This document shows, piece by piece, positions 27,978-30,074 of a DNA stretch of 44,217 nt. Source of the DNA: Sphingomonadales bacterium. GTDB lineage: Bacteria; Pseudomonadota; Alphaproteobacteria; Sphingomonadales; Sphingomonadaceae. The notes under the pieces were generated by a model, which ran no database searches, was not told the DNA's origin, and saw only the letters and a program-made list of their open reading frames with translations. Position 1 is the first letter of the stretch; each line of letters begins with the position of its first letter. Location: positions 1 to 44,217 of the forward strand of contig JAGXTB010000214.1 of the NCBI GenBank assembly GCA_018334165.1. The letters are read 5' to 3'. The position numbers and the translations under genes are program-made.

Positions 27978-30074
27978 CTATTCCAGCTCCAGGATCACCG
28001 CATCGACTGCCAGGCTTTCGCCCTGCTTGGCATTGATCGTCTTGACCGTCGCGGACTTTTCGGCGCGCAGGATGTTTTCCATCTTCATCGCCTCGACCAC
28101 CGCGAGCGGCTGCCCAGCCTCGACCTTGTCGCCTTCCTGCACGTGCAGCGCCACCAACAGCCCGGGCATCGGGCAGATCAGGAACTTTGACAGATCCGGC
28201 GGGATCTTTTCGATCATATGGCTGGTCAGCGGGGCCAGCCGCGCGGGCAGCGCCTGAACCTTGTGGACCCTGCCATGGGTAGTGAGTTTCAGGCCGGTGC
28301 GGGTGACTTCGACTTTCACCCCGTAATCCGCATCCCCCACAGAGGCTTCGACCATCCGCTCGCCCGGCGTGTATTCCATATCGAGGTCGAGCGCCTCGCC
28401 ATCGACGGTCACGTCCTCGTCCAGGCTGACCGCATGGGTCACCCCGCCGATGGTCACTGACCAGTCGTAGGGCGGCTCCAGCGTGCCATCGAGCTGCTGG
28501 TCGATCTGGCAGGCCCGGTCGGCCCGCGCGGTCATGATGAACCCGGCGATCGCGGCGAGGTGTTTGAGCGTGTCAGCCGAAGTAGCCGCACCGGTGAAGC
28601 CGTCGGGATATTCCTCGGCAATGAACCCGGTGGTCAGCTCGCCCGAGCGGAAGCGCGGGTGCTGCATGATCGCGCTGACGAAATCGATGTTGTGGCCAAG
28701 GCCCTCGATCTCGAAGCGGTCAAGCGCTGCAATCTGAAGGTCGGCGGCTTCGCTACGGGTCGGGGCCCAGGTGATCAGCTTGGCGATCATCGGGTCGTAG
28801 AACATGGAGACTTCTCCGCCTTCCATCACCCCGTCATCGACGCGGATGTAGCCCTGCGGCATCTCGACTTCGCTCGATGCGAACGGAGGTTGGGAGGAAA
28901 CGGAATCCAAACCAGACCCGTTCGTGTCGAGCGAAGTCGAGACACCGTCGGCAAACGGGGCTTGGGTTTTGTCCGCGAGGGGAGGATTGTAACGCACCAG
29001 CCGCCCGGTCGAGGGCAGGAACCCGCGATAGGGGTCTTCGGCATAGACCCGGTTCTCGATCGCCCAGCCTTCGATCTTCACATCATCCTGCGTGATGCTG
29101 AGCTTCTCGCCAGCGGCAACGCGGATCATCTGTTCGACCAGATCGATCCCGGTGATGCATTCGGTGACCGGGTGTTCCACCTGCAGGCGGGTGTTCATTT
29201 CGAGGAAGTAGAAGCTCTCGCCGCTGGGGTCCGCGCCCGAAACGATCAGCTCGACCGTCCCGGCGCTGTAATAGCCCACCGCACGCGACAGCGCGACGCA
29301 TTGCTCGCCCATCGCCTTGCGCATCTTGGGCGTGACGAACGGCGAAGGCGCTTCCTCGACCACTTTCTGGTGGCGGCGCTGGATGCTGCATTCGCGCTCG
29401 TTCAGGTAGAGCACGTTGCCATGCTGATCGCCCAGGATCTGGATCTCGATGTGACGCGGACCCAGGATGAATTTCTCGATGAACACGCGGTCGTCGCCGA
29501 ACGAGTTCAGCCCCTCGCGCTTCACCGCCTCAAAGCCTTCGCGCACGTCCTTTTCATCATAGGCGAGGCGCATGCCCTTGCCGCCGCCGCCGGCGCTGGC
29601 CTTCATCATCACCGGATAGCCGATCTCGGCCGAGATCCGCACCGCGTGCTCGGTATCCTCGATCTCGCCCACGAAGCCGGGGACAACATTGACTCCCGCC
29701 TCCTTGGCAAGCTTCTTGCTCTCGATCTTGTCGCCCATCGCGGCAATGGCATTCACCGGCGGGCCGATGAAGGCGATGCCGTTCTTCGCCAGTTCCTCGG
29801 CGAACGAGGTCCGTTCGGACAGGAACCCATAACCCGGATGCACCGCCTCGGCCCCGGTCTGTTTGCACGCCGCAATGATCTTGTCCGCGATCAGATAGCT
29901 CTGCGCGGCGGGCGACGGGCCGATGTGTACGGCTTCGTCCGCCATCTGCACAAACGGCGCGCGGGCATCGGCATCCGAATAGACCGCGACGGTCTGGATA
30001 CCCATCCGCCGGGCAGTCTTGATCACCCGGCACGCGATTTCGCCACGGTTGGCGATGAGGATTTTTCTGAACAT
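27978..30074 (-). CDS. pccA: Propionyl/acetyl-CoA carboxylase, biotin-carrying alpha subunit
   Basis: The alpha subunit carboxylates biotin with ATP and bicarbonate. PccB then carboxylates propionyl-CoA to methylmalonyl-CoA. The 698-residue product has the biotin carboxylase start FRKILIANRGEIACRVI, the ATP-grasp glycine loop KASAGGGGKGMR, EMNTRLQVEHPVTE, the BT linker domain, and the biotinyl domain with EAMKMEN (biotin on Lys664). It is odd in one place: residues about 370-410 carry a Ser/Asp/Pro-rich insertion (ADGVSTSLDTNG ... SSEVEMPQG) not seen in normal family members, where this loop is short. Residues about 376-406 are encoded by a palindromic repeat in frame. ATG at 30074 lies one base after the HNH gene. 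Confidence 0.95.
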   Translation of the reverse strand: MFRKILIANRGEIACRVIKTARRMGIQTVAVYSDADARAPFVQMADEAVHIGPSPAAQSYLIADKIIAACKQTGAEAVHPGYGFLSERTSFAEELAKNGIAFIGPPVNAIAAMGDKIESKKLAKEAGVNVVPGFVGEIEDTEHAVRISAEIGYPVMMKASAGGGGKGMRLAYDEKDVREGFEAVKREGLNSFGDDRVFIEKFILGPRHIEIQILGDQHGNVLYLNERECSIQRRHQKVVEEAPSPFVTPKMRKAMGEQCVALSRAVGYYSAGTVELIVSGADPSGESFYFLEMNTRLQVEHPVTECITGIDLVEQMIRVAAGEKLSITQDDVKIEGWAIENRVYAEDPYRGFLPSTGRLVRYNPPLADKTQAPFADGVSTSLDTNGSGLDSVSSQPPFASSEVEMPQGYIRVDDGVMEGGEVSMFYDPMIAKLITWAPTRSEAADLQIAALDRFEIEGLGHNIDFVSAIMQHPRFRSGELTTGFIAEEYPDGFTGAATSADTLKHLAAIAGFIMTARADRACQIDQQLDGTLEPPYDWSVTIGGVTHAVSLDEDVTVDGEALDLDMEYTPGERMVEASVGDADYGVKVEVTRTGLKLTTHGRVHKVQALPARLAPLTSHMIEKIPPDLSKFLICPMPGLLVALHVQEGDKVEAGQPLAVVEAMKMENILRAEKSATVKTINAKQGESLAVDAVILELE
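28857..28947. repeat. Palindromic GTTCG/TCGAG element inside the pccA coding sequence
   Basis: The left half (28857-28886) is the reverse complement of the left half of the intergenic element at 33870 and of the one at 34792. The right half (28918-28947) matches the reverse complement of the right half at about 34828-34855. A spacer of 31 bases separates them. Here the GAACGG ends face inward, the opposite of the intergenic copies. The frame of pccA stays open throughout. Confidence 0.9.

Follow-up and report, generated by a model that had tools for sequence, protein, structure and literature searches.

How does a gene of core metabolism come to carry, inside its reading frame, a palindromic repeat of a kind that otherwise lies mostly between genes, and is this peculiar to one species? 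The question is raised by pccA in a 44,217-nucleotide stretch of a sphingomonad draft genome; by "the window" we mean the whole of that stretch. The features on which the argument rests are the following.

27978..30074, minus strand: pccA, propionyl-CoA carboxylase alpha subunit, 698 amino acids (open reading frame, Pfam domains, solved-structure match).
28845..28997, minus strand: the variable PccA loop (residues 360-410), flanked by the GRL motif and by R411-V-D-D-G (loop extraction, pLDDT).
28857..28886, minus strand: palindromic repeat half of the CAT type, translated as PFASSEVEMP; 28856-28895 and 33861-33900 are 93% complementary.
28887..28917, no strand: spacer of 31 nt between the outward-facing halves (sequence comparison).
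28918..28947, plus strand: palindromic repeat half of the TGT type, its complement read as GVSTSLDTNG; an inverted match to 34826-34855, 100% complementary over 30 nt.
33863..33933, no strand: facing pair of the same family as the pccA repeat, at the boundary of the next genes (sequence comparison).
34746..34901, no strand: four-copy composite, outer CCC type and inner CAT/TGT type, forming a 156-nt near-palindrome that is 81% complementary (sequence comparison).

The pccA gene and the loop that holds the repeat

The protein has the Pfam domains Biotin_carb_N, CPSase_L_D2, Biotin_carb_C, PCC_BT and Biotin_lipoyl; like other PCC alpha subunits, it thus combines biotin carboxylase, PCC_BT and BCCP domains with an AMKM biotinylation motif. 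Its best solved relative is 3n6r_A (E 1.4e-250), and it shares the fold of PCC alpha (3n6r, human PCC). The listing of open reading frames starts pccA at an earlier TTG, upstream of the 698-residue frame used here. Across the whole repeat element the frame stays open, which agrees with the earlier note's claim of a palindromic repeat in frame at 28857-28947, where a repeat pair is in fact found. That note also held the catalytic motifs and Lys664 to be intact, and they are: among 36 aligned PccA proteins the invariant columns comprise E661-A-M-K664-M and, apart from the loop, most of the catalytic part, and the domains are present in Pfam. In a tree of 81 PccA proteins the end branch of the window PccA (0.15, against a median of 0.14) gives no sign of relaxed constraint, and the enzyme presumably still works. 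Between pccA and the methylmalonyl-CoA mutase gene lies an open reading frame (30076-31104, minus strand) that by eye has the look of an HNH-type nuclease.

The repeat element lies within a loop of 51 residues, from L359 to R411, of which it accounts for about 91 nt, or about 30 residues; the median loop in the family sample described below has 25. The earlier note had put the extra segment, of about 30-40 residues in the C-terminal region of biotin carboxylase, at about 370-410; the loop is nearer 360-410. In an AlphaFold2 model of PccA (mean pLDDT 84.6), values below 50 occur only at residues 369-371 and 376-402, that is, in the insert, between strands 361-363 and 409-414 of the C-terminal biotin carboxylase part; since the insert is missing from most rows of the 36-sequence alignment behind the model, some loss of confidence there is to be expected. 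The loop is thus predicted to be disordered. This prediction, and the acceptance of up to 75 residues in other species, suggest that it lies at the protein surface.

The repeat in its own genome

The two halves in pccA (28857-28886 and 28918-28947) are mutually inverted copies, 87% complementary and 31 nt apart. Matches to copies near 33870 and 34792 had been reported, and 28918-28947 is indeed 87% identical to 33870-33899 and 83% identical to 34792-34821. In the draft genome as a whole (3.09 Mb, 247 contigs) the repeat core has 261 matches with at most two mismatches (136 + 125), and a reversed control has none. Exact pairs are arranged as 87 facing pairs (gap 5-30 nt) versus 4 outward ones (gap 10-40 nt); therefore the inside-out order noticed earlier in pccA is both real and rare, and the pccA pair is the only outward exact pair in this genome that is composed of CAT and TGT types.

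By its short palindromic unit, its copy number and its prevalent inverted pairs, the repeat resembles a REP-like family. It is also mostly extragenic, since none of 28 distinct palindromic sites falls in a coding-like frame; these sites lie in 33 loci of the genome, the pccA locus not among them, which cover the first matches listed. REP doublets (REPINs), which are likewise short palindromic units in mostly inverted pairs at high copy number, are moved by RAYT transposases. The window repeat differs from them in that the pccA pair faces outward and in that the two Y1_Tnp (RAYT-like) genes found in this genome, L115 (G000:C89) and L116 (G000:C153), are not flanked by it: the repeat, with up to three mismatches, is absent from the 4.4 and 5.3 kb around them. 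No transposase could be tied to the window repeat. Because the assembly is incomplete, a third Y1 transposase gene may be missing from it. As judged by eye, neither a GTAG nor a CGTC tag is apparent at the ends of the window unit.

Copies of the repeat occupy the first bases of contigs C17, C45, C74, C91 and C99 of this draft (G000), and since copies sit at several contig starts, the draft seems to break at the repeat. Elsewhere in the window, 9907-10000 and 37570-37664 hold inverted repeats of another type (CTCTGCG.., CTTTGCG..), probably further repeat families, and 41036-42322 is a tandem array with a unit of about 249 nt, in which a 36-nt core occurs six times and a 300-nt copy four times, in what is apparently a gene for a repetitive protein.

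Recurrence of inserts in the PccA loop

Is the insert peculiar to the species of the window? An even sample of the order comprised 147 genomes, 77 from the window's family and 70 from other families. All 77 PccA loops of the family could be read, and 11 of them, our own genome counted, carry an insert; 66 do not. The 70 genomes from other families yielded 13 readable loops, none of them long. A second set of 80 GTDB loci contains 12 carriers and one locus, L080, that looks by its sequence as if it keeps a repeat remnant; this set was taken from the top of a list of at least 592 candidates, ranked by match, and is no even sample, and the two lists of carriers have two genes in common. Within the genus, the window species is the sole carrier among 30 loops (none of the 29 other genomes has an insert). 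Uniqueness of the loop is nevertheless ruled out by the palindromic repeats found at the same place in many other sphingomonads.

Measured from GRL to R-x-D-x-G, the loop has 11-31 residues in most PccA proteins and 40-75 in carriers; L193 and L107 have loops of 36 and 39 residues that form no hairpin. A common loop type of 25 residues (GW..DDG..NGRRG) was never seen together with an insert, so tolerance may depend on the type of loop. The start of the insert varies with the carrier; judged by eye, it lies some 5 to 18 residues past GRL. All 77 loops of the family sample read through and none is broken, which argues for selection on the frame.

The inserts were recognized by their capacity to form hairpins. 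The loop DNA of the window has a hairpin score of 20.0, against 7.4 +/- 1.1 (maximum 11.0) in 100 dinucleotide shuffles, and the background within pccA reaches at most 13.0 in 480 tiles of 150 nt (80 loci; tiles of three loci touch an insert-free loop). With gaps allowed, 21 of 176 distinct loops score 13.0-32.5 and all others score below 10. The 176 exclude 17 minus-strand rows (our own L117 and 16 of the same genus) and L218, which were read separately; no insert was found in those 16 same-genus rows or in L218. Every distinct loop of at least 40 residues (21 of 21) is palindromic and belongs to the high-scoring group, so that long PccA loops lacking repeat similarity, which would have spoken against a repeat origin, do not appear. 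The 11 carriers of the even sample each score above every one of 100 dinucleotide shuffles; the weakest, L210, does so narrowly (13.0 against a shuffle maximum of 12.5) and ties with the best background tile (13.0). Two ungapped scans, both superseded by the gapped score, had marked fewer: a strict search for inverted repeats, with 16-nt arms and one mismatch allowed, picked out 7 of 84 loops and no other part of the same genes, and a second marked two pccA loops among 81 loci.

Carriers, among them the cultured Sphingomonas sp. NFR04, Hephaestia mangrovi and Sphingorhabdus soli, are scattered on the tree. In the tree of 81 PccA proteins, calculated with the loop left out, the 14 carriers (L080 included) require 12 changes of presence, at least 10 of them forced by starred branches; a shorter tree of 77 PccA proteins gives 10 changes with weak support, one of them forced. 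The same PccA loop has been repeatedly enlarged by different hairpin-forming repeats in sphingomonads.

Repeat families at the loop

By our own sorting of the sequences, at least five unrelated-looking repeat families are found at this one loop. For the 12 GTDB carriers neither contained in the even sample nor searched through it, the assignment is based on likeness and palindromic structure.

GAGCGAAGTCGA type and near variants: the window, L060, L063, L067, L089, L200, L206.
CCCCTCCC..GGGAGGGG type: L059, L061, L064, L066, L071, L076, L090, L190, L196, L210.
CCCCAGCGAAAGC type: L086, L201.
CATTGCGAGGAGCGAAGCGACG type: L213.
CCCCCGCGCAGGCGGGGG type: L204.

The sister pair L086 and L090 have inserts from different families. 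The first palindrome of L064 (the same gene as L171) encloses another, AGCATCAGGT..ACCTGATGCT, and the loop reaches 75 residues. In several carriers a motif (H/R)QAPF precedes the insert, and it also occurs in the insert-free loops L031 and L084 (with a variant in L173). Because its DNA resembles the CCGTTCG start of the window repeat family, it may be an old relic, or else a native segment.

Do these inserts have relatives elsewhere in their genomes? In samples of 34-120 kb, other copies were found for the inserts of L201, L206, L200, L190, L176 and the window, with none in a reversed control; no second copy appeared in such samples for the inserts of L210, L213, L196, L171 and L204. Of these last five genomes, four gave copies of their own or a similar insert when whole genomes were searched, and G180 gave only few. 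Counted in pieces, where many genomic places yield one piece per strand, the L213 insert has 51 in G164, the L201 insert 84 in G061 and the L204 insert 31 in G153, while for that of L196 the counts are 75 (G073), 20 (G066) and, in the genome that carries it, 5 (G180). As judged from these matches, the PccA loop inserts searched in this way are genomic repeats.

Comparison with MccA and with other genes

The paralogue MccA, which has the same fold, offers a direct comparison. In 68 of the 77 genomes it was read as one aligned piece across the loop (the other nine, weaker best matches, are not counted), and none of the 68 has such an insert; the matching loop has at most about 7 extra residues. 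The difference between 11 of 77 for PccA and 0 of 68 for MccA is significant (Fisher p 0.0008).

A rough background was drawn from 11 carrier genomes, in 60 stretches that total 1.18 Mb, with about 578 genes of at least 200 amino acids, few in number and called by frame and base composition. It contains 138 palindromic sites, 102 of them with other copies within the stretches. As a positive control, the tile scan found the PccA loop in 14 of 16 rows and in 12 of 13 genes; the one with the nested palindrome escaped it. Nine palindromes lie in long background frames: eight of these frames have no Pfam family and look spurious, and the ninth, in the linker of a pyruvate dehydrogenase E2 (PDH E2) in L262, is the one Pfam-supported case of an in-frame repeat among the roughly 578 genes, which places PccA far above the average gene. 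A looser scan gave 16 sites in coding-like frames, which look like chance hairpins in conserved proteins, 12 of them having no other copy in the stretches.

The PDH E2 of L262 (14162-15733, minus strand) has a doubled E3-binding domain, with repeat halves flanking the second unit. Of 29 PDH E2 linkers, 27 were read, and those of L351, L354 and L359 look repeat-derived by eye; other alanine- and proline-rich linkers score 14.5-15.5, so that only L354 (19.0) is clear. By these sequences, the PDH E2 linker is possibly a second recurrent acceptor site.

Why one loop takes many repeats

We propose, with considerable though not full confidence, that PccA has a disordered, length-tolerant loop in which selection keeps just the in-frame landings of many repeat families. 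High-copy, REP-like, non-autonomous palindromic repeats would land throughout the genome, and landings within genes would mostly be purged by selection. In the PccA loop, an insert that is in frame and free of stops would add flexible residues, do little harm and persist as a nearly neutral change. Inserts of this kind arose again and again among sphingomonads, from different repeat families. The outward-facing pair in the window, which belongs to a dominant repeat of its genome, may be what remains of two neighbouring pairs of the same orientation after loss of their outer halves. Since both insertion points and families differ between carriers, a tolerant site is favoured over a single DNA target.

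The opposite view would be that the loop DNA is a preferred target of the enzymes that move the repeats, and that insertions accumulate there whatever the protein tolerates. The arrival of many elements at one loop, the palindrome nested in a palindrome in L064/L171, and the presence in several carriers and non-carriers of (H/R)QAPF, whose DNA is similar to the beginning of the window family, would all fit such a target. Nevertheless, at least five families of differing sequence are involved, their insertion points are spread over about 13 residues, and the loop DNA of the carriers is widely different; we regard this explanation as unlikely.

It is also tempting to propose that some lineages are under positive selection for a strong hairpin, or for the bulky disordered peptide that it encodes, at this place in pccA, and that sphingomonads refill the loop with any palindromic repeat, in a convergent exaptation of unrelated selfish repeats for which the PDH E2 linker could be a second site. 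This bolder proposal strikes us as somewhat less probable still. The earlier note's word "domesticated" goes too far, as nothing shows a function of the insert, and "tolerated" is the safer term.

Might the added residues be useful to the enzyme, in assembly, regulation or binding? The inserts persist with an open frame, and those of L066 and L071 look similar. On the other hand, the peptides differ between lineages, even the near relatives L064 and L066 have different inserts, and the segment is predicted to be disordered, all of which makes a common benefit improbable. More doubtful again is selection at the RNA level, by which a hairpin in the middle of the biotin carboxylase frame would slow ribosomes or control the transcript and any palindrome would suffice. 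That all distinct loops of at least 40 residues are palindromic despite their different families is what one would expect from it, but the hairpin is missing from 66 of the 77 family genomes, its carriers are dispersed on the tree, and palindromes, being the common mobile repeats of these genomes, would be the usual inserts anyway. Finally, an assembly error or a pseudogene is scarcely credible: although the window comes from a draft of 247 contigs with several repeats at contig ends, the insert lies at least 15 kb from both ends of its contig, the one-contig genomes G061, G076, G088 and G064 have inserts at the same loop, for which reason we reject an assembly artefact, and the frame and motifs of pccA are intact.

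Relation to known in-frame repeats

The insert in pccA has a parallel in the Rickettsia palindromic elements, which are described in many unrelated protein-coding genes (Ogata et al. 2000, 2002; PMC10969869). Compared by description, the two cases are alike in that palindromic repeats are translated in frame within genes, adding tens of residues; in pccA the motifs that bear the function are left intact, and the parallel with Rickettsia drawn in the earlier note is sound. They differ in that Rickettsia belongs to another order and in that a single loop of a single gene is here the meeting point of several families.

REPs in open reading frames are a further published parallel (PMC3733652). GTAG- and CGTC-tagged REPs are reported there to give 20-30 residues as dimers or groups, in organisms that include S. 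alaskensis and E. litoralis, and in recB of two Xanthomonas a REP lies at about the same site, while other genes have them at different sites (PMC3733652). The description of tagged REPs in that article gives no acceptor loop common to many families, and its main text does not contain the word "carboxylase" (PMC3733652). In the window unit, judged by eye, neither tag is apparent. S. alaskensis and E. litoralis we take to be the sphingomonads Sphingopyxis alaskensis and Erythrobacter litoralis. In the open-licence literature we found no report of PccA inserts or of one loop receiving many families. In-frame palindromic repeats are thus already known; the literature searched yielded no loop described as an acceptor of many families.

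Significance

New protein sequence has been proposed to arise when selfish repeats are captured in frame, a process described mostly from scattered cases. Many captures of different families within one bacterial family amount to replicates: lineages can be compared for where the insert lies, how the frame is kept, and how inserts decay or are lost, and what capture does to a well-studied enzyme can be measured. The PccA loop offers a natural insertion-tolerant site in propionyl-CoA carboxylase for new protein sequence, and the pattern suggests that flexible linkers might be mapped by where repeats survive.
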